A stretch of 64,000 bases of DNA from the NCBI GenBank assembly GCA_033439255.1, contig CM065878.1, positions 4,216,001 through 4,280,000 on the forward strand. Reading direction: 5' to 3'. Position 1 is the first letter of the stretch. Each line of letters begins with the position of its first letter. Source of the DNA: Hericium rajendrae (lineage: Eukaryota; Basidiomycota; Agaricomycetes; Russulales; Hericiaceae). This document shows positions 435 through 26,917 of the stretch, piece after piece. Under the pieces are notes generated by a model that saw nothing but the letters and a program-made list of their open reading frames with translations, did no database searches and was not told the DNA's origin. A program made the position numbers and the translations under genes.

Positions 435-3400
435 TAGAGCATACAAAACATATGTTGAAGAATGGGGTCATTGATGATATAGAACAGCCTGTGACTGCCA
501 GTGCACCACAGGCTAGCCAACATGTGGAACTCTTCCTTAGTATATGAAACCCCATGAGCAAATGTTGTAATCTGCTGCTGCTCATCAGGGACTTTGCCAT
601 CACAGCTCCTGATGTGGTGCAAAAGATTGCTTGTGCTATCATTACTTGGTGAAAGAGGGCCAATGCTGTGCATGGCAAAACGATTCCTTTTTTTTTATCA
701 TCAATGAAGGTATATAAATTACCGTCATGTATGGCCATGTACAGGTACACTGACATCTTGCATGCAGGCCTGTACCTCATGCCTTATACTTGGCATGTAG
801 CATTGTGCTAGGGTCAGTGCCTCATGCATGCCTGCTACACCTCATACTAGCCTACTAGTATGCCTCATGTTCACTGGTCACACCCTATGCTGGTCTACCA
901 CATCTCGATGTACCTTGTGGATGGGCCAGTGACAGCTCAGAGATAGCTACAGCTGAATGTGAGCATGTCAGCTAGCATAACCATATACATGCATTGTATG
1001 TTGCTATGTACAGGTGTATCACCTGCCTGTACCTTGTGCCTCATGCCTCATACACAGACATACTGAGCCATGCATAGGCTTAGTGCCTTATGCATGCTCA
1101 CCATGCTACACTACATCTTGCATACAAGCCACCATCCCATAGATGCTTACTGTACTTCATGTACAGGCCCACAGCATCTTGGCACTCTGCACATGCTTGC
1201 AGCACCCTGTGCATGGCCACCACACCCTGTTGATCTCCTGTACAAGCTACTAGCAGCCTTACATATGGGCCTGTATGCCTTATGCTCACCCTCTATGCCT
1301 CATGCATGGCTCTCAATATCTCACACATCCTCACTGCACATTGCATCTTATATATAGGCCCACTACAGCTTAACATTGGTGAGCATGGCCACTGGACCTC
1401 CTGCACAGCTATGACACTTATCATGCCTTGTGCATGAACCTAGTGCCTTATGCACATATGTACTTTTGTTGTGCCTTACCAGTGCACACATGCTTGCACA
1501 TAGCTCTACCTGTACATGATGTGTACCATTGTGCATGTGTGCACTGTTTGAACTTGTAATATACTTGATTGTACTAGTAGCTGTATGAAATATAATTGAT
1601 TTTGGCTTTATATCTCTTGTACCTGATTGATCTGAGACAGTACTAATAGCAGAGATCATAGTAGGGACCATATAGATCAGAGCAAGTCTTTGAATTTATA
1701 TGATTTGTACAACAACTACAGCTATCCTTCAGAAACATGTAGCACTATATAGTGTCCAACTACTGTTATGATAGCTATGATAGGCCTTATAGTCTTACAT
1801 AGTTGAGAACTGTGGTGGCATAAATAGTGATAGACCTTATAGTGCTATGATAAAACATATAGATCAATACTGGGCTATATGAAATTTCAATTTTTCAGAT
1901 GATACACACTACACCAACTCATATATGCACTCTTGGCTCACATTTTTTGACCTATGCATACTTTTGTTGATTAGCTTACACATGTATCAACCTATGAGCA
2001 TCACAACAAACTTACGTATGCTTCTACTACCTCATACGTTTCCTGTTAGCCTGTGCACCTTCTATTAATTTGTATACATTGCTGCTAGTACCAAAGGCAG
2101 AATTTAATTTCTATATTTGGATTTTTTTTTTCTGACTTTTACAAAAAATAACATAAATCATACCAGTTTTTTTTAATAGAGCTTATATCTCTTCAATGTA
2201 TAATCTAGTCAGTATTTTTCTATTTTACATGCATAAAATACTATAAAAATTGAATTCTTACCTTCAAACCATATTTTGTATACTGGCAGAAATTAGTGAC
2301 CAAATATGGCAACTACTTTCTGGTAAAATTGCCTGTCGATTAGCATGAAGGTTTAGAGTAACAAAAAACATATACAAATGTCTAAGAGCATCAATTGTGC
2401 AAACATCACTTTAAGTATATTAGGGTTCAACACAAGTGCACTCGTGAGTGACCTAGATCTGAACTCGCAAGTATTCTATCTGTCCAAGGTGCTGACCTGG
2501 ATCCATGCAGATTTGCACCACTGGGTGATCTGGAGCTGCAGGTCAGGTATCTGTGACATCACAGGTCACTTGCAAGTCAGTTGGTCTTAAAGTTGTGTCT
2601 CACTTTTATGATGCCCTCCTCTTTGTTTCTTCATCTTAATCCTCCCCTTTTCACCCTATCTCCTCAATTCAATGGCAGGATGGGTGTTATGGAGATTTGA
2701 GAGGCTTCTAGGTGAGTCCAAAAGCCTTTTATTTCATTGTACTGTACTAATCTCAGGAGTCTCACTCGATAACAGGCAAGGCTCTCATTTTTCACTGTTC
2801 TTCGACAGGTTTCATGATGTTTGATGGGTTTCATGACATCCCACCATTTTTTGACATCATCCACCATATTTCGTGTACCATCTGTGCTTCTCCCATCATC
2901 CTCATCAACAGGTCAACCAGCCAACCAGCCCTCACCCATCTTCGACAACCAGCACTCATGTGCACCAGAGATTTAATTCTCACTCACAACAGTAAGAGCA
3001 TGCACAGTGCCAGTCTAGCGCTGCAACTGCAAGGCCCACAATGCCTGTCAGATCTTGTTGCTACAGCATTGTTGCTACAACAGCAAGGCTTGACATCTTT
3101 TTGCTGATCATCCGAGCAGTGCCTAGCATGCCTCAACAATGTGCAGTTGTCTACAAACAGCTTTGCATATCCTTGCATGTCTGAGACAGTGTGCATCTAC
3201 CAATACATGCCCTGCCAGCATACACATTTTTGACTGCATGCCCCCACCATCCCATAGTCCATTGCTCAAACTACATGTGTGCATTCATGTCCATGGACAT
3301 CACACATACCACTATGCATGCTGTCATATCATTCGTCTGACAGAAGCCCAATGTGAGGCAAGTTTTATATGCCATCAGTGCTATTCAACAATCAAAATGC

Positions 3401-3558
3401 ACCCTCCCCGGTCTCATTTCCAATTTCTATCCAAGTTGGTGATGTCATTTGTGTGTGCATGCCCACAGCTATGCCAGTACATCAGCACCCACATATGCTC
3501 CCCTTGCACATGTACCAGCCCATGTGCACACACATACTTAAAGCTGCCCCACCGACAT

Positions 3559-3752
3559 CATCAGGAAACTTCTCACTTTCCTGGCTTTACTGTTGTAGGT
3601 CTGATGTTACTGTTTTGGACCTGATATTACTGTTTTCAGACATCTGGATCTGACTTGTGTCTGAAAACAGTCTGAAAACAGTAACATCAGGCCTCAAACA
3701 GTGACATCAGACCTACAACAGTAAAGCCAGGAAAGTGAAGAGTTTCCTGATG
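3559..3752. mobile_element. Foldback MITE, family D copy 1, inside Helentron copy 1
   Basis: A 194-bp near-perfect inverted repeat that begins CATCAGGAAAC and ends GTTTCCTGATG. It is flanked by AT on both sides, a 2-bp target duplication. The termini share CATCAGGAA with families A, B and C, but the interior (TTTCCTGG, TTACTGTTGTAGG words) differs. The second Helentron copy carries the same insertion at 38792-38980, so the MITE entered before the two Helentron copies separated. Confidence 0.8.
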
Positions 3753-4505
3753 ATGCACATGCCCATGTCGATGCTACAAGTATGTCGCATGCAGCCTTTT
3801 GAATCCATGCCTTGCTTGTAGACTTTATACACTTCATGGGTATGACAAGATATAGTGATAATGGGCATATGTGATTGGAGCTGTAAGTCAGTGTTGGCAG
3901 ATAACATATAGTATGTAGTTAGTTAGGGATCATGACATATAGATTTGAACTTTGCAATATAATATGTTAACCAAAATAAAGTTTGGATAGCAGGTTACCC
4001 ACAGGTCACTCACAGGTCAATGGGTTTGAGCACAACCTTGATCTGGATTTGTACAGGTCTCAGCCACCAGGTGATCTGGATCTACAAGTTAGATACCTGC
4101 AGGCCAATTTTGTGGGTATACCCGTGTTGACCTACAGGTGACTCTGACTCGTGTCAAACCCTAAAGCATATAAAAAAACACTGTTTAATCTAATCTAATC
4201 ATGAGTAGTTCAGCTCCTACCTCTAATAACTCTATATTTTCTGCTATGTTATATATCTTAGTACCTTATTATATATATAATCTGGTATGTAATACAGTAC
4301 ACACTTGTCATATCTTATTATACTCAGCTCGATATATGATATACACTATTATATATGCTTATATTATAAATACTTGTAATATCTACAATTATAATAGTAA
4401 TCTAGTTGTATGTCTAATCAAACAAGATTCAAGATTGAATATATGATCAATGTCAAACATTGTATTGTTGAACAAAGCTAATGGCCAATCACGTGATCAA
4501 TAGCA

Positions 4506-4529
4506 GACCTTGTTCGGCCGCACAAGGTC
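4506..4529. repeat. 24-bp near-palindrome GACCTTGTTCGG..., first of two in the Helentron
   Basis: GACCTTGTTCGG is followed by CCGCACAAGGTC, a 24-bp inverted repeat with one mismatched pair. It recurs at 5258-5281 in the same element and at 39734-39757 and 40486-40509 in the second copy. A perfect version occurs outside Helentrons at 54538-54561. It is followed by TGGTGGCTG here and by a TCACATGACC word at 5288-5297. Function unknown. Confidence 0.7.
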
Positions 4530-5257
4530 TGGTGGCTGTGCTTAGCTTATGTCAGCAGTAGTTGATGTTGCGCTCTCTGCTCTCTCTTCTTTTCTTCAGA
4601 TAGCTTTGAAGTCAGTGTGACACTACCAGTAGTGCACACTAACTACAAGGCTTGGACACGCCCAGTCCCCATCTGCAGCGAGTTGCGGCTGAGGTGTCCA
4701 ATGATGGTGTGAGGCCATCACCAACTTTCTGCTGATGATGTGGCATAGAGATCAGGCCATAGAGCTCTCAATACCACATCAATCAGAATGAGTTAAAGCT
4801 TGTTAGAATCAGATTTACAATAGCTCTAGAATAGTGCCACAAACAACAAAATAGCATGACAAAATGCTGACGTATTGGACTATATGTCTATGATGATGTG
4901 GCAAACTGTTTGCTTTATAGCTCCGCTGATACTGCATCAATCATGATGTATGAGGGCTTGTTGAACTCAGATTTACAATAGCTTTCTAACAATACAGTGT
5001 ACAACATCATAGCACCATTGGTTGTTGAGATAGGAGACAATACTGTTTTGCTAATATAGCATATAAATTGAAGAATATCTCTGCTTACAGTGATCCGATT
5101 TTCGTATTCTAAATTGGGTTAGAAAGATGTAATCCAAGGTATATAAACACAATTTACCGTTTGTCGATTGATTGCTTTGTTGCAGAGCTATAAAGCAATC
5201 ACTGTATACAGTGTATTGGCTCTCTAACCGACTTATGCTTATGTAAGCAGGCGCTAA

Positions 5258-5281
5258 GACCTTGTTCGGCCGCACAAGGTC
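5258..5281. repeat. 24-bp near-palindrome GACCTTGTTCGG..., second in the Helentron
   Basis: Same 24-bp near-palindrome as at 4506-4529, here followed by TTGTAAGATCACATGACC. Present at the matching position in the other Helentron copy (40486-40509). Confidence 0.7.
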
Positions 5282-6000
5282 TTGTAAGATCACATGACCG
5301 AGTCTCAGGACCCACTGCTACCGATAAATTGCATTTGTTGCTCATTTTATCAATAAACAGTATGTACATTTGTTTGCTGTGTATCATTTTAGTGGCTGTA
5401 TCTTTCTATAAGCAGTAAATTGTGTTAGAGACCAGCTTTCTGGTATATTTGGATGCATTTGAGAACAAGTGAATCGGTTGAGTACTGATTAAGTTAGCTG
5501 AAGTTCAAGCATTCTAGGGGGAAAATGCAGAAACAATTCGCATTCTGCGAGTTTTGCACCGATCCTAACGCCTAAGGTACTATCAGAAAGCTATCAATAA
5601 GTAGATTCTGATGCATTTTAGAACGAGTAAATTGGTTGAGAATTGGCCTAGTTAGCTAGGGTTCAAGCATTTTAGAAGAGGAAAAAAAGAAACACTTTGC
5701 ATTCTGCAAGTTCTTAACCGATTTGGATGCATGAAGTATGGTAGCAAAGCTATAAGTGAGTAGATTTAGACGCATTTGAGAACGAGTAAATCGGTGAAGA
5801 ATGGACTGAGTTAGCTCAAGTTCAAGTGTCATAGAGGGAAAATGTAGAAATTCATTGCATTCTATGAGTTCTGCACAGATCAGGATGCAAAAAATACTGT
5901 CAGAAAGCAATAAATGAGCAGATCCAGATGCATTTGAGAACAGGTGAATTGGTCAAGAACTGATCAAGTTACATTAAATCAACAAAGTTTGGCTAGAGCT

Positions 6001-6075
6001 GGAGTTGAACCTGCAAACTCGTTAGATTGAAGATATGTGATTATATAAGCCAACTGCCTAATGGGCATAGTCATC
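6001..6075 (-). other. tRNA-like (Pol III promoter-like) segment near the Helentron 5' end
   Basis: On the minus strand this holds CAGTTGGCTTATATAA, which resembles a tRNA D-arm/A box, and about 35 nt later GGTTCAACTCC, which matches the B-box consensus with one change. The same segment is kept near the 5' end of the other non-coding Helentrons: minus strand about 41216-41290 and 28736-28810, plus strand about 26985-27060. A clean cloverleaf cannot be drawn; the anticodon and T stems pair poorly. It may be a decayed tRNA or SINE head captured by the family. Confidence 0.35.
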
Positions 6076-6550
6076 GTTTTGGTGTCGTTTTCACTATGAA
6101 AAGGCGGTATAGAGTAAACGATTCTAAGGAATCGTAACTACGTTCACATATGAGAACAGCACTTGGGCATCTGGAATCATGATTAGTACAGTCAGAACTC
6201 AGAGCTAATCATGTACGATGAACTTTTTGCAGATAAACTTATATTTCACTGCTCCTTTTTTGACGATGATCAAAGGCAAAAGCTGGAAATGCTTGTATAC
6301 AGCAGACTTCCACCACTTCTGCTGCAATTCTGTGAATACAAAGTAATCAGCTAACTTTTGAAATCATAGGTGTCATGACCTTTACTCACCGAGTACTTCT
6401 TCATTGCTTCTCTCTGATGTCTGATACTGGGCGTTGAAGGTTGTCTTTGCGATCTTTGTCGGCGGCTCGGGGGTCGTTGACGTGGAAGATGGCTGGCTCA
6501 ATTCACAAGTGCTCTGACCTGGAGATGCAGAGCGAGCATGCTTTCACACC

Positions 6551-19245: not shown

Positions 19246-20179
19246 GGCAGTTGCTTCATCTTTATCATGTTGACCATCAAGCTCATGCTGAAATGTGCCC
19301 AGAATCTTATCACCAAAACTATTTATCATATCATGTTGTTTTCTTTGTGCAGAAAAGTCATCTCTAGCATCATTGCATTCATATTTGATTTGAAAAAAGT
19401 TCATAACTTGCTTTTGCCTAAAAGTAAATTTATTTTTCTCAAATGCATCATCCCATGATTGTTCTTTGTTCTTAAGGTCAAGACCAGATCTCCATGGTTT
19501 AAATAATGTGAGCATAGTTTGGCAATATTCTTCTCTATTTCCTTTGTCTCTTCTAGGCAATGCACCTTCAGTAAAGTTTGGAACTTTGCTTTTGCTCTCA
19601 TCAAATTTATAAATATAATGACTGTGTGATTGAGGATGTGGCTCAATAAACAACATTTTAGAAAGAATTCTTTTTTTGTACTATGTTTACTATTTTTATA
19701 ATTATGATCTTCATCATCTGGATCCTCCTCCTCCTCTGTCTCCTCCTCTGCATTATCTGGATATATATATTCATCATCATCATTATCATTGTATTTCATA
19801 TCTTCTTCTACTTCTTCCTCCTCTTGCATTTGAAGTGTAACATCTTCATCAATATCCATTTTATCTTCTTTCAAATCACTTTTTTTACTATTATCCATAT
19901 TTATATCCTTGCTATCTTTTGACATATTTGATGTTTGATTTGACTCTAATTTGTCATTTGAAGACTGTGACTTAGATTTTTTTAATCCACTCAAAGGTCT
20001 TTTTTCATACAAACATACCCAATCATACAAAGTCACATCACTGAGTTCTTTTGGTCTATACATGTAATCAAGAATTGGAGACAAAGCTACTAACTTTCCT
20101 TGAATTTGATTTACTATCACTTTATCAGGAACATCCTCATGAAACTCATCAATTTGATTCCAGTCTTGGCTAACTTGTT
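19246..20179 (-). pseudogene. Helitron protein, middle part between Rep and helicase
   Basis: Minus-strand coding sequence lies between the Tc1/mariner and gypsy insertions. Upstream it reads KVIVNQIQGKLVALSP and YDWVCLYEK, then a long acidic run (19730-19880). Downstream it reads VPNFTEGALPRRD and MLTLFKPWRSG, the conserved segment seen in fungal Helitron proteins before the helicase domain. The two halves lie in different frames around a poly-A run near 19670, an apparent one-base shift. The acidic run resembles those between Rep and Hel in large RepHel proteins. Confidence 0.65.
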
Positions 20180-20181
20180 TA

Positions 20182-20483
20182 TTGCTGTTTGCAAAAGAGT
20201 TGGCGCGGCGCGGAATTCACACGAAAGTGTCCACGGCGGCCCCGGCGAAAGAAATTACGATTCTGCTTGAACTACTGTAGCTACACTAAAATGGACTTCA
20301 TATTCTGAACCAGCGATTTTTTCTCATCACGTAAGTGCCCTCGTTTGCATGTTTTGACCGTTTTCTGAAATTCGAGTTCAAAACACGAAGAATGCAAATA
20401 TCTCTGGAAATAAAATACTTAGAGCCTTACTGAGACCATAGAATGTTGACGTACAGTAGTAAGTATATGCACAAAAAGTTTGA
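20182..20483 (+). repeat. Left TIR of the Tc1/mariner element
   Basis: Begins TTGCTGTTTGCAAAAGAG and matches the complement of 24030-24330 for about 300 bp. The outermost bases differ slightly (TTGCTG against TAGCTG). Confidence 0.88.
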
Positions 20484-20641
20484 GAGCAAGCCGTTGTGTC
20501 TGGAATATACTGCGAGCTCTGCATTGCTGAAGGGGGGGAGGAGAGACCGGCCCAAGCCGAATTTGGAATTGTGCGACGCTGCAATAGATACCAGGGCTTG
20601 CTGCAACTCGGATACGACTCGCATTCACTATACCCTCCTTC

Positions 20642-22621
20642 ATGCCACCTTCAACGCGCTCCGGTGACTCGGGGAGTCCTGCGGTAGATCTGCCGGTGCC
20701 CGCAGTCAAGAAGGGGCGTGGTCGTCCTCGGAAGACTCCAACGGGCAACAATACACCTGAACTGGTAATGAAGTCTAAATCGGCAGTTCCTCCCCGAAAG
20801 GTTCCACCTCGACCAACTCACCGTGGGGTTCAGAAGTCCACTCCTAGCACCGAGGCACTGCTCGCTGCCTCAGGCATCGGAGCGCCAGATTCTCGCACCT
20901 GCAGCTCAAAGGCGACAACGCCATCTCATACCGCTGAAGACTCGCTTGCTGCAGAAGCCCTTCTCCAGATCAAGACTGGAGCCCGCGGCGAGGATGATGC
21001 GGTAGTGGATGACAATCGGAGGGAGGCAGAGGGTGATGAGGACCAACAAGATGATCTTGATGGGTCACTGACACCAGTGTCAAGGTCGGACAACGGAGAT
21101 ATGTATGACTGTAAGCATCATTTTGTCCGCTCGTCAATGGATTTGTAACGTACCTTTTTTACAGCTGACCATATGCCCATTGCAAGCAACAGAGCTCCCG
21201 CGCGCACTACCTCGATAGTCAATATCGATGCGGCCTCAGCAGCTACGCTTTCAGAACGCAGCGAATCCATCGAGCCTGCCTTTACCGTCACCCTGCAAGT
21301 TCCGGTTGATGGAGCTCTTGATACACTCACGGTCTTGTCCAATATCGGCTGGGAAAACTTTCAAGATGCAGTCGCTGAGCAGATGGACATCCGTACCAGC
21401 AAGCTGAAGCTGTCGTACAAGTTCTCGAACGATGCCAAATCGGATATGGCTCGACGGCTTGCAAGTGCCGCCAATCTCCTTAGCTTGATGACGGCAATAG
21501 AGGAGAATCAGTTGCAAATGAAGAAGAGCCGGGCCAAGAAACCCTTCACTGTAACGCTCTTCCAAAAAGACATCGAGACGATGGCCACCTCTGAAAACAA
21601 AGGGAAGCATCAGGTATGTACCAAAGTTCCTATGCGAGCGATCGAACAAAATTCACTCGTGAGAACAGGCTTCTGGGTCACGGTCAAAGGCGTCTGGAAA
21701 GAAGACGGAGCACGACGAGAACATGATGGATGCTCAATCTGAATTCCGGAGTTCCAGTTCGAAGTTTGTGATGGCCCTGCAACTGCGGTACAAGTGTGAG
21801 AAAGAGAACTGTCATAGCTACTGCTGGGTTCGAGCAGATGGCATGCATGTCAAGTTGGACACGTCGCACCTTAGTCTGTGGGGACTGCTTCTGGTAAGCA
21901 AGATCACCGTGTACTCTCGGTCAAGATCCATTCTCATCCTCATGCTTCTTAGAGCTTTGAATCTGCAAAGTTGGATGAGTTGCCAGAACAGCTTCTCCGT
22001 GGTGACTTCATTCTGCCGTCCAGTAACTCTATGGATCATGTTCCACGACGTCGTGGAACAAATGGTTCTGCTCAGAAGCCCGCTGAATTGCCACAGCCTC
22101 AATCTTTATCTCCGAGTAACAACCTGTTGATGGCCGGTGCATTCCATCCTCACACTTCACCGTATGGATACTACCAACCCATTCCAGCACCATATCCTCC
22201 CTATCATCACCATCCCCATTCGGGTTCACACCATGCACGTTCCTCTTCGCCAGTCCACGGTGATGCTCCGAGTTCTGACGGGCCGATCTCAATGTCAGCG
22301 GAGGAAGATCCAACAATTTTCCCTTTGGTTACGGAATGGTTGCACGAGCTTGACATGTCTGCTCGTGGGAAGGACGGTACCAAGTATAGCCAATACATCT
22401 ATCTTTTCGAAGAGAGATGTATTGACCGCATTGTTGAAATCGATGACCCTCACTCTTTCAGTGCTCAAGAGCTGGAAGGACTGTTTGGAGGCAATATGCC
22501 AATCGGGCATGCAAATCGCATTATAACATATGCTCGAAAGGATGTCCGCTCGATCCGAGAGCGTTTGCGGCAGGATGTGGCTCACGAGCGCAAGGCAAAG
22601 CGGCCTCGTCATCGTTACTAG
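20642..22621 (+). CDS. Accessory protein of the Tc1/mariner element (AT-hook, Cys-rich and SAM-like regions)
   Basis: Four exons can be drawn: about 20642-21110, 21166-21613, 21687-21892 and 21953-22621. The three introns of about 55-75 bp start GTAAGC or GTATGT and end in CAG, AAG or TAG. The protein is about 580 residues. Near the N-terminus KKGRGRPRKT is an AT-hook. A middle segment (PAFTVTLQVPVDG to ANLLSLM) looks like a small folded domain. Next comes a Cys-rich stretch, CEKENCHSYCWV, then a Pro/His-rich linker. The C-terminal segment (TEWLHELD to GHANRIITYARKD) has the helix pattern of a SAM domain. It begins just inside the left TIR and ends close to the transposase stop, so it belongs to the element. 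A role in DNA binding or transposase assembly is inference. Relatives as multicopy basidiomycete proteins are likely from memory only. Confidence 0.7.
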
Positions 22622-22718
22622 TAACCTTTTTTTGATCATTTCGCACTCTCCACTCCTTCAGTCACTCTCTTTCTTATCTTACTTTGAGATATAATCACTC
22701 TAATGCACATTTCGCACT

Positions 22719-24032
22719 TCACATGTAATTACATTTACGAAAATAACCCTGTGCATGTTCTGCCGTGACTGAGAAAACTGCCTCATGCAGTGCTACATAG
22801 ACATCTTGATCATTGTCAGGGACGGACATGGAAGCCAATATCTCATTCGAATTGCGTCGCAAGCTGCTTTTGATTGCGGAGAAAGCCAGCTCAATCGGGT
22901 TGAAATCGGGTGAATACGGAGGAAGAAATTCAAGTCGCATGCCTCTAGACCTCAATGAGATTACAGATTGTATGCATAGTGAAGTCACTCACCGCTCCTG
23001 AATCATCTCTAATATAATTGGATGTTTATGAATGCGACAATTGTCCATGACAAGAACTGAATTGGGGCCAGGATATGGATTCATCTGATCGAGGAGGCCA
23101 TCGACGAAGCAAGCAAATGTCAGTGATGTAAATGAGCCTTCGATGATATCAAGGGCCAGAATGCCATCAAGAGAGATAGCTGGAAGTAATGAGTATCTGT
23201 ATTGCATATCAAGATCAGAGCCCATATATAAATCACTACAAGCTCACCGCTTCCCGCGAACAAAGAAACAGCGCTTCCGCGATCGGGTACCCATCATACT
23301 CCATCCATTGATGCGTGTTGGTGTCCGCTTGTCACATGCAGCTTCATCTCCGAAGACAAGCTGCTCTGGTGTATAGATGAGGCCCATTCGGAACACAAAG
23401 TCTGCGCATTTCTCGAGACTCCTTTTGATAGCGTCGCATGTAACCTATTTTCGGAGTTAGGTTGATCTAGTACTGAGCATGACATTCAGAGACGCACCCG
23501 TTTCATTGAGAATCCAGATTGCCTTAGAGCCCTCCATACGGATGCCATAGACACCTCAATGTGACAGGTCTTGTCCAAGCTTGCCCGCATCTCATCAAGA
23601 TAGACGTCACAGCTGCGAGCAATGAGCGAATGCAAAAACTAGTGCAAATGATCACGGAACCAAGGTGAGCATATCAAAATATGCACGAAGCAAAGCACAT
23701 ACATGTACGTTCTGAGCTTTCAGCGCTCGGGGCCGGCCCATATTCTGTGTCGGCCGTTGATACCATGGTGCTCCAGTACGTCTCCAGAGTGACTGGATCC
23801 GCTGGATTTGACGCTTGCTCAGACCTGTATAAGCAGAGATATCATCCATATCACGAAGAGGAAGCATGCGAATGATGCACCAGGCCAGATCTTCCGAGGC
23901 CTTGTGGCCACGCATGATGGAAGAATGACAAGTGCGCGACGCCTGCATAAGCGCCGAGTGACATCGGTGATGTACCCGCGGCCACCGGTCAAAACACTCT
24001 ACAATGGTATAGGCTCGACGAACTCCCTCCAA
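22719..24032 (-). CDS. Tc1/mariner (IS630-type) transposase, split by introns
   Basis: Minus-strand gene of about five exons. Helix-turn-helix region: DISAYTGLSKRQIQRIQSLW, followed by GRPRAL, which resembles a GRPR minor-groove hook. Catalytic triad, read in separate exons: FGDEAACDKR (first Asp, about 23350), VMDNCRIH (second Asp, about 23035) and LPPYSPDFNPIELAF (third acidic, Glu, about 22910). Introns of roughly 50-100 bp include one beginning GTGCGTCTC near 23500 and one beginning GTGAGCTTG near 23250. No lesion is evident, so it may be functional. Initiation could be at 24032 or at a Met a little downstream. It would cut at TA and join the 300-bp TIRs. Confidence 0.82.
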
Positions 24033-24330
24033 ACTTTTTGTGCATATACTTACTACTGTATGTCAACGTTCTATGGTCTCCGTAAGGCTCTAAGTATTTT
24101 ATTTCCAGAGATATTCGTGTTCTTCGTGTTTTGAACTCGAATTTCAGAAAACGGTCAAAACACGCAAACGAGGGCACTTATGTGATGCGAAAAAATCGCT
24201 GGTTCAGAATATGAAGTCCATTTTAGTGTAGCTACAGTAGTTCAAGCAGAATCGTAATTTCTTTCGCCGGGGCCGCCGTGGACACTTTCGTGTGAATTCC
24301 GCACCGCACCAACTCTTTTGCAAACAGCTA
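24030..24330 (-). repeat. Right TIR of the Tc1/mariner element
   Basis: Inverted copy of 20182-20483, ending GCAAACAGCTA next to the TA duplication. The transposase start lies at its inner edge. Confidence 0.88.
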
Positions 24331-24332
24331 TA

Positions 24333-26917
24333 ATATATGTACTCCAAAAGAAAACCTTAAACAAGTGACTTGTATAGTGATCTGGATGAGACAAGAGATA
24401 CATGCATGCCATGGGAGATCCCATTTCTAATTTTACAGTTAAAGAATTTACTATCTGAACTATTAACTTTCTTGCCTTTTCTTGTCTAGAATTATCACCA
24501 CCAATATAAGTAGTATTTTTATCAAATACACTGCGGATAGCCTGAAACATGACATGAGTGTTCAAAGGTGACTTGGTAATGTAGTCAGTAATATATGCAA
24601 TAATAGATTTAATACTTGTTCCAGAAAGCATACTAGTTACATCTGTGTTACAACCCAAAAGATATGTCAAAGGTGTTGAGAATGTATTGAGCATGGCCTC
24701 TCCTTTTTTCATGATAATACTGCCACTATCTTGATCTATTAAAGAAGCTGGATAAGTCTCTCTTGGAAATCGAGCTTTGCAACTGTCATATTTTTTATTC
24801 TTACAACCTCCTCTGCCACAGTCGTGAATATTTGATAAATATAATAGTTCATTGACTCTTTTTTTGAAATGTGCCCACCAAGAGCATGTTTTTTGACAAT
24901 TGCTACAATCATTTACAAATTTATCATTTACATGTTCATCATCTGAATTTGGAACTAGAGATGTTTGATCATTTATCACATGTGTTTTGCATGACTGTGG
25001 TGGTGCTTCTGGCAATACTTGAGTTGATTCAACATAATTAGAATTCTTTTCCATTTGTTTTATCATATCATTTTCCACTTTGGCCATAGTGCTATCAATA
25101 AACTCACCTTGATGACAACTTTCTAAATATCTGATCATCTCTTTTTGAAACTCAGATGTAGGCTAAGATGGCCTTGTTGTTCTACAGTACCATAGTATCC
25201 AGCAGTCTTGCCATATAAACCTCTTTCTTTGTCATTGAATCTTAGCACATGCTTGATAAACAAGTCCACCATGAGTTTAAAAAATCTAGCTCCTGCTACT
25301 GGATTGCTAGCAATGAGACGGAACTGCTCATCTTTTTCATAAAGCTTTGGATATAATTTCAAGTCCTTGTCAGCAAAATAAAGACAGATTGGATGTTTAA
25401 GATCAGCTGGCGCAAATGTTATAAACCAAGAGGGAGCACCCAAATATGATATAAGCGACCAGATCTCATTTCTCATGTATTTTTGACCAGTCTTTGAACC
25501 TTGCACATGATGAGCAACATGATCTAAGTCATTGATGATTTGATAGCAGAGTTTTTCTTCTTCTGTTTCTGGCTGTACTCTTTCTCCCTCAGCCAATCTA
25601 TCTATAAGTTGACTTAGAACCTCTGGATTTACAGACATGAGTCTATCTGCTATATTAGAAAAATTAGCTTTTTTGGCTAAGAGATAGCCACCAGTGGTAC
25701 TGTCTTTAATCTGATTATGATTAATACATACCAGGGGAAACATAGCCTCATACCGAAATCTTTTATCATAATACATCAATAGATTTCCTTTTCTTGCTTG
25801 ATCTGATATCTTAACACTGCCATTTTTGTTACCAATGCCACCTAGTCCATATGGAAACAACCATGGAAATATCTGAGGATATAGCTGAGGATTGTTATAT
25901 ATTGACTCAGGATTTGCAACTTGTCCTATGCCTAAAGCTCTATTGTTTTTACCTCTCATATGCTGTAAAGCAATAGCTCTAAGTTGTTGAGTGGTCTTTT
26001 TTTCCAGATCTCCTCCTGTTAGTCCATGTACAATAAAAGGACAAATACCTGACTCTACACCTTCAATAGGTTCATCAGATACAGACATCATTCCAGGCTC
26101 AGTGGCATTGTCTGCAATTTTGCATTCTACAACTACTGCAGGAACATCTTCTGGATATGTATTTAAATTCTCATAAGATATATCCAAGTCAGCATAATCA
26201 ATATGATTAAGCTTCAACCATTCCAAAGCATGAGCCACTTTATTTCTTCGAACTAAAAGAGGAGTCCGCTTGAAATCTTTTTTGGTAGGCTGAGTCTGTC
26301 CTATGTAAATAAAAGCCATCACTTCATCTAGCTCATCAAGACTAAGTGGAAGCTTTGCATATACTTTAGGCATAGGAGTAGAAAAGAAAACAGCATTTGC
26401 AGACATTTTATGCAAGCCAGATTTGTTTACACGTACAATGCATCTGTTGTGACACACCCTAGAAATAAGCATTTTTTCAGTCCAACTAAGGTCCTGTAGC
26501 TGTTTTGGAATCTCACCTATCCAATTGCCATTTATCAAAGCTCCTTTTGGTGTCTTTTTCTTTTTCAAATCTTTCAGACAAGTGTCACAGATATCTTCTG
26601 AGTATATATTCATAATTGGCCCTTCACAAGGCTGTATAGGATTAGATGAGGTATATCTTTCTTGCCTTGCAACAAATGTATTGTTGCTTTCAAGAATAGA
26701 AAAATCAAGATCATGTTGAGAAAGATTAGAAAGATTTTTGATAGGAGTAAGTAAATTACAAACAGCACATGAGCCCTCTAATATCATATTTGGTTGAATA
26801 TCTTTACAATAAGCAGAAACAATGCCTTCAATAAGTTTTTTTGAAGGAGGAATTGGAGGAAATGATTTATTGATATTACTATTTAAATTTTTGTCTTGCT
26901 TTTTATTAGCTCTATAT
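24333..26917 (-). pseudogene. Helitron Rep (HUH nuclease-like) domain, damaged
   Basis: Minus-strand coding sequence starts at the Helentron Y insertion. It contains a Cys pair near the start (GSCAVCN), the segment GAPSWFITFAPAD and then YYGTVEQQGHLSLHL, which is the approach to the HUH motif. The frame then changes: the expected second His and following residues are missing, and the next frame resumes with TSEFQKEMIRYLESCHQGEF. A small deletion with local CATCT repeat at about 25150 explains this. Further on are CGRGGCKNK (zinc-like) and YITDYITK, the tyrosine motif of Rep. The region ends at the Tc1/mariner insertion. Without an intact HUH motif this Rep should be inactive. Confidence 0.72.

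Follow-up and report, generated by a model that had tools for sequence, protein, structure and literature searches.

Tc1/mariner transposition, the textbook example of a mechanism run by one protein, underlies gene-transfer tools in wide use. In the 64,000-nt stretch of DNA analysed here (the window), an element of this type was predicted to carry, convergent to its transposase gene, a second and apparently intact gene. The locus therefore raises the question of whether this accessory gene truly belongs to the element and, if so, whether its product and the transposase make up a two-component transposition system.

Boundaries and gene content of the element

Positions 20182–24330 of the window form a complete, TA-flanked IS630/Tc1-type element of 4,149 bp with two genes arranged tail to tail (Table 1). 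Its surroundings are a Helitron-type ORF, and the empty site in the Helitron copies L062 and L063 reads ...ATATATTA/AACAAG.... These empty sites prove the insertion and the duplication of TA, and set the element limits at exactly the positions given above. The predicted terminal inverted repeats (TIRs) of ∼300 bp around both genes were recovered as 304 nt at 96%, a length in which 3 flanking bases per side are counted. The Helitron frame also resumes across the insertion, as had been claimed: when the flanks are joined as protein, the resulting 145 aa find matches at 18 further genomic places at 88–99% (six of them at 99%), 17 near full length and one over residues 33–145. In the three Helitron copies compared, flank pieces of 143–942 nt show 98.6–99.5% identity, so the window insertion looks recent. 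Apart from the window, the genome has no full-length match to the element. The two-gene element as originally observed is confirmed. That two neighbouring genes were merely united by chance or by nested insertions might be suspected, given that the element itself sits inside another mobile element, the Helitron, but the exact match of the empty sites, the duplicated TA, the TIRs that flank the gene pair, and the same arrangement inside the TIRs of six other elements make this exceedingly improbable; we rejected it on account of the empty Helitron sites.

Table 1. Features of the two-gene element, in window coordinates
Feature	Position	Strand	Basis or remark
TA target-site duplication, left	20180..20181		comparison with empty Helitron site in L062/L063
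Left terminal inverted repeat, ∼300 nt, complementary to the right repeat at 96%	20182..20482	+	repeat search
Accessory exon 1 (AT-hook-like GRGRPRK, acidic stretch)	20642..21110	+	gene model; AT-hook sub-threshold
Accessory exon 2 (possible beta-grasp/ubiquitin-like domain, label by eye)	21165..21613	+	low-confidence model
Accessory exon 3 (conserved C/H motif up to WGLLL, then conserved intron donor)	21669..21893	+	gene model and motif comparison
Accessory exon 4 (proline-rich linker, helical SAM-like C-terminus, stop)	21953..22621	+	gene model
Transposase exon 5 (catalytic E)	22719..22944	-	gene model
Transposase exon 4 (second catalytic D)	22993..23196	-	gene model
Transposase exon 3 (first catalytic D)	23248..23444	-	gene model
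Transposase exon 2	23498..23638	-	gene model
Transposase exon 1 (N-terminal part, helix-turn-helix-like by eye only)	23703..23948	-	alternative start 23915
Right terminal inverted repeat	24030..24330	-	repeat search
TA target-site duplication, right	24331..24332		comparison with empty Helitron site

The transposase gene, on the minus strand, has five exons and encodes 337 aa with a Pfam match to DDE_3 (PF13358, E 5e-25). The full DDE set ascribed to it is present on the gene model as D162, D246 and E281, a DD34E triad with 34 residues between the last two. By its DDE_3 domain with DD34E, its TA duplication and its terminal inverted repeats, the element belongs to IS630/Tc1/mariner; the single transposase gene usual in this group, a trait that is typical rather than defining, is not what we found here.

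Convergent to the transposase gene, the accessory (or partner) gene on the plus strand proved to have the four exons originally described, with GT–AG introns and an intact frame of 603 aa without internal stop. No Pfam family scored above cut-off in its protein, nor in six accessory fragments of other elements or the whole C6 accessory protein, and Pfam recognised no enzyme domain in the partner. The domain assignments of the original prediction fared unevenly. Its AT-hook did not hold up, as the motif reached 12.3 bits against a Pfam cut-off of 17.4 and was not seen by eye in the C6/C2 sister proteins; it is thus neither above threshold nor conserved. The SAM-like C-terminus is only suggestive: a single-sequence model of this region has five helices (pLDDT 64), and six of the 15 weak matches in a profile search (best match E 0.056) were SAM chains by title or recall, but none of the 31 Foldseek matches to the C-terminal model reached E 0.001 or better, Pfam SAM had no match in the accessory proteins, and nothing useful came of comparing two single C-termini with PDB sequences. 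Leave-one-out searches recovered 6 of 11 C-termini, four of them above the negatives, and missed that of the window itself, so that sequence does not establish common descent of the C-terminus for all. The model of exon 2 was poor (pLDDT 48).

Linkage of the two genes across the genome

Searching with the window transposase, we found at least 28 transposase places in the genome, 23 with a convergent partner relative, two that are complete single-gene elements and three fragments (C14_916, C3_1994 and C8_1146). One of the 23, C14_255, is counted on the weak support of E 0.049 and an ORF judged by eye. Partner relatives were located by a three-protein profile, a motif search, a motif profile, flank reading and further searches. 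Outside the 28 lie ten further DDE_3 places (two below cut-off), and C7_2631 and C11_1930 were read among these.

The accessory protein of the window, used as a query, matched C2_4367 and C6_2857 at 27–30% identity, the sole other loci at E ≤ 1, and a convergent transposase adjoins the accessory gene in both. Introns 2 and 3 are positioned alike in all three accessory genes; the frame is open in C6_2857 and carries three in-frame stops in C2_4367. Long TIRs surround both genes of C2_4367, and C6_2857 shares the left end, its right end being cut (by eye), with no enclosing repeat found. TIRs around both genes were present in seven of the nine two-gene loci covered by a long stretch of sequence (elsewhere, coverage was ∼1.5 kb beside the match), namely the window, C2_4367, C14_964, C6_2893, C18_146, C3_3487 and C17_50, with arms of 45 to ∼390 nt. 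Four of these seven, read as whole elements, have arms of 45–141 nt at 80–97%; the arms of C17_50 measure 74 nt at 80%. No enclosing TIRs were found for C2_4867, which is located at a contig end.

Seven accessory queries (E < 0.001) produced matches exclusively at the 28 transposase places, except for two on C17 obtained with the C14_964 query. One, C17:368290, is an accessory relic of 66 aligned residues with no transposase match within the 3 kb read, and the other is an unlinked match at C17:410108. Weak accessory matches at E > 0.005 lie at C13:1729838, C10:1225299, C9:721885, C14:1581734, C8:2334318 and C8:2294590. The original prediction had named two observations that would speak against it. 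A stand-alone host gene with no transposase was looked for in this genome, and no intact stand-alone accessory copy occurs among the matches read from the seven queries. Sister elements devoid of the second gene do exist, but only as the near-identical pair C17_251/C1_4687, nested in the two-gene tree (see below). The claim that the accessory gene is not a flanking host gene stands, given the enclosing TIRs, its linkage at 23 of 28 places and the empty Helitron sites.

Beyond this lineage, two elements of canonical Tc1 type (type by eye) in the same genome are 1.3–1.6 kb long, have one gene each and lack the partner. In viral_contigs no partner relatives were detected, and two queries found transposase relatives, which we take to be IS630-type, at 1 and 19 loci (31–63% identity over the aligned pieces, 31–41% over the longer ones); the ORFs of one of these loci, L066, were read.

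Conserved motif, selection and shared history of the two genes

The predicted Cys-rich segment proved both real and conserved. A motif C...C...H...L...WA is common to 13 aligned partner sequences, with two invariant columns (the second C and the W) and four nearly invariant ones. By eye, 11 of the 13 rows have as second ligand an H three residues or a C five residues past the first C, a spacing that would fit a four-ligand metal site, and the pattern makes the motif a possible zinc-binding site. The C/H ligands are missing from the motif of C3_3487, and cysteines were not seen in C10_1738 and C6_3138, two sequences outside the 13-row alignment that were placed in the family because they have the intron donor, retain the motif's tryptophan end and weakly match C2_1192 (E 0.02). 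Leave-one-out motif profiles recovered the left-out partner in nine of nine cases at 19.4–56.7 bits, against at most 7.5 bits for negatives drawn from the window flanks and from three Helitron, two Tc1-type and nine of the viral_contigs transposase loci. Directly past the motif, a GT intron donor occupies the same codon boundary in all 19 partner genes checked, a count without C4_3540, C17_176, C17_50 and C14_255. Within this one genome, common descent of the partner's motif and intron position is thereby shown.

The partner gene is under purifying selection in the older pairs of elements. The comparison of dN/dS across copies, suggested with the original prediction, gave partner values of 0.09 (C6_2893 versus C2_3809), 0.09 (C6_2893 versus C14_177) and 0.11 (C10_1738 versus C6_3138), that is ∼0.1 in all three, resting on 206–243 codons, part of the gene, with C6_2893 shared by two of the pairs. 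The transposases of the same pairs, in the same order, gave 0.06, 0.11 and 0.07; dS is near saturation for the second and third. The partner value for C2_3809 versus C14_177 was also 0.09, and is not independent of the others. Younger partner pairs gave values between 0.23 and 0.64, most of which have wide intervals, among them the full C6/C2 accessory pair at 0.25 (pN/pS 0.16–0.44), and one young transposase pair gave 1.22 on five changes.

Distances between partners correlated with those between transposases (Mantel test on 13 chosen elements of the 23, r 0.82, 0 of 20,000 permutations), and did so more weakly when near copies were dropped (r 0.47, 63 of 20,000). The Cys segment alone, with near copies dropped, showed no significant correlation with the transposase (r 0.18, 3,945 of 20,000). 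In a tree of 25 transposases, with 20 of 22 inner branches well supported, several long end branches and midpoint rooting only, two-gene elements fall on either side of the root. The single-gene elements C17_251 and C1_4687 are nested among them as sister to C2_2085 (97/97), from which they differ at a DNA identity of 81%; gene loss in this pair is the simplest reading under the midpoint root. The two have 1,430 bp in common at 99.4%, with TIRs of 155–182 nt, and seem to have transposed recently with no partner gene in cis.

These results bear on the view that the partner is a captured host gene carried along as a passenger. Gene capture by transposons is frequent, and the accessible part of PMC3627910 reports captured proteins in chimeric Mariner elements, but a passenger would hardly be expected beside 23 of 28 related transposases, with no intact stand-alone copy among the matches read from seven queries, and with a conserved intron, purifying selection in older pairs and correlated distances. 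Linkage, selection and correlated divergence all disfavour this view, and we consider it very improbable. Since the partner has been kept beside most related elements and shows signs of selection, it probably serves the transposon as a functional component.

Possible roles of the partner and comparison with known systems

We put it at even chances that the window element represents a diverse IS630/Tc1-type lineage whose normal set is two tail-to-tail genes inside TIRs, and whose partner works in transposition itself. The likeliest reading of its role is that of a transposition cofactor which binds DNA or the TIRs and multimerises. Binding to the TIRs or to subterminal DNA would be by the basic N-terminus and the C/H motif, a possible zinc site, the helical C-terminus would multimerise, and partner and transposase together would assemble both element ends; single-gene and MITE-like copies would borrow the partner in trans. 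What survives of the two-component system first proposed is the partner as a true second component, backed by linkage, TIRs, co-divergence and selection; the AT-hook does not survive, and the SAM-like C-terminus is suggestive only. Weighing against a cofactor are the recent-looking single-gene copies, the loss of ligands in some partners, the absence of the AT-hook from sisters and the weak SAM resemblance. More tentatively, and somewhat short of an even bet, the lineage may be ancestrally and obligately two-component, with the partner family (C/H motif plus helical C-terminus) integral to the transposition machine and the single-gene copies parasitising two-gene ones.

The main rival to a cofactor is an anti-silencing or expression factor, which would bind element DNA and relieve host methylation or heterochromatin while being dispensable for the cut-and-paste chemistry. 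It fits most of the facts behind the cofactor reading: the partner is conserved with no recognised enzyme domain, is missing in cis from two young copies despite that conservation, and has in-frame stops in one sister copy. VANDAL elements are of the Mutator type, and their protein VANC binds repeated motifs; the left non-coding end of the window element contains no repeated short motif family, and the whole element two-copy pairs only, which counts against such a role. As a precedent, VANDAL elements are likewise DNA transposons coding for a non-transposase protein, the anti-silencing VANC, according to the accessible parts of PMC10398659 and PMC5735166. Overall, we regard an anti-silencing partner as unlikely. 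Rather unlikely, too, is some other auxiliary function, such as element repressor, target choice, nuclear import or a link to a host complex. The same conservation data (dN/dS, tree, distances and motif) would accommodate it, and a helical C-terminus with a proline-rich linker would suit protein–protein contacts, but no specific pointer to any one of these roles emerged.

Several known groups of DNA transposons come closest to this system. Tc1/mariner and IS630 (DDE_3) elements are like the window lineage in their DDE_3 domain, DD34E triad, TA duplication and inverted repeats; the window lineage differs by its conserved second gene. PIF/Harbinger elements have a Myb-like second protein and a 3-bp duplication and belong to another transposase superfamily, whereas the window element has a TA duplication and its partner no Myb-like Pfam match; they are described as two-gene DNA transposons, with a transposase and a second ORF, in the accessible part of PMC5543537. 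Tec/TBE elements of ciliates are Tc1/mariner-type and, like the window element, have more than one ORF, the second Tec ORF being a site-specific recombinase (PMC7325037, accessible part); unlike the recombinase characterised there, the window partner has no Pfam enzyme domain. Mariner elements whose TIRs and TA duplications also enclose genes for Fanzor1, an endonuclease or a methyltransferase have been described too, and in the four related elements presented there the extra genes vary from one to the next (PMC3627910, accessible part), whereas here one homologous partner runs across a deep transposase tree; the partner gave no Pfam match to a TnpB-like protein with a C4 zinc finger or to a nuclease. 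Among the open-access matches listed, no title or abstract start described the two-gene pair; prior cataloguing, for example in Repbase, is possible.

A second protein has been retained through deep divergence and, in the element pairs analysed, is constrained about as strongly as the transposase. Such a two-gene lineage makes the contribution of the partner testable, whether it aids the synapsis of ends with long TIRs, lets the element escape silencing or has a part in regulation, and gives an unnamed protein family a functional context. Partner genes of this kind may be mis-annotated as host hypothetical proteins.

We also observed two MITE-like copies of 767 bp, mutually 100% identical and TA-flanked at different sites, which have 20 of their 22 first bases in common with the window element. 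They suggest recent activity of some related machinery, whichever element mobilised them.

Apparent derivatives and relatives of the two-gene lineage

The two nearly identical single-gene elements at loci L030 and L032 (99.4% identity; coordinates in the table) apparently derive from a two-gene element like C2_2085. At L051, a 1.9-kb copy (4255-6130) retains inverted repeats of 349 nt at 95% identity and only a remnant of the transposase, and is probably an internal-deletion derivative. The MITE-like copies at L019 and L020 are 100% identical to each other; their inverted repeats, 318 nt long, are similar at the ends to the repeats of the window element. A third MITE-like copy, at L018 (3264-4061), is more diverged than this pair.

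Pieces of the accessory gene, of the type found in the two-gene element C14_964, were also detected at L065 (1376-1636), with no transposase detected in the 3 kb examined, and, by an accessory-protein genome search, on contig C17 of the same genome (410108-410416), away from the 28 transposase places found.

Coordinates of the interrupted host frame and of related elements (each locus in its own numbering)
Feature	Location	Strand	Remark
Helitron-type host ORF, split by the window element	window 19401-20181 + 24331-26916	minus	type label from the original prediction
MITE-like copy	L019 3216-3982		767 bp
MITE-like copy	L020 2892-3658		767 bp
Single-gene element	L030 890-2319		
Single-gene element	L032 890-2319		

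The interrupted Helitron-type gene

A genome search recovered at least 18 further copies of this ORF family, which match the tested piece at 88-99% identity; five lie within open frames of >1,600 aa.

IS630-type and Tc1-type relatives

Transposases of the two-gene lineage are fairly close (31-41% identity for longer matches) to those of loci L066-L085 from viral_contigs, which we take to be IS630-type; this proximity hints that the two-gene clade connects with IS630 instead of with canonical Tc1. L061 carries a one-gene Tc1-type element (2371-3690), which appears, from flanking ORFs judged by eye, to be nested in a retroelement.
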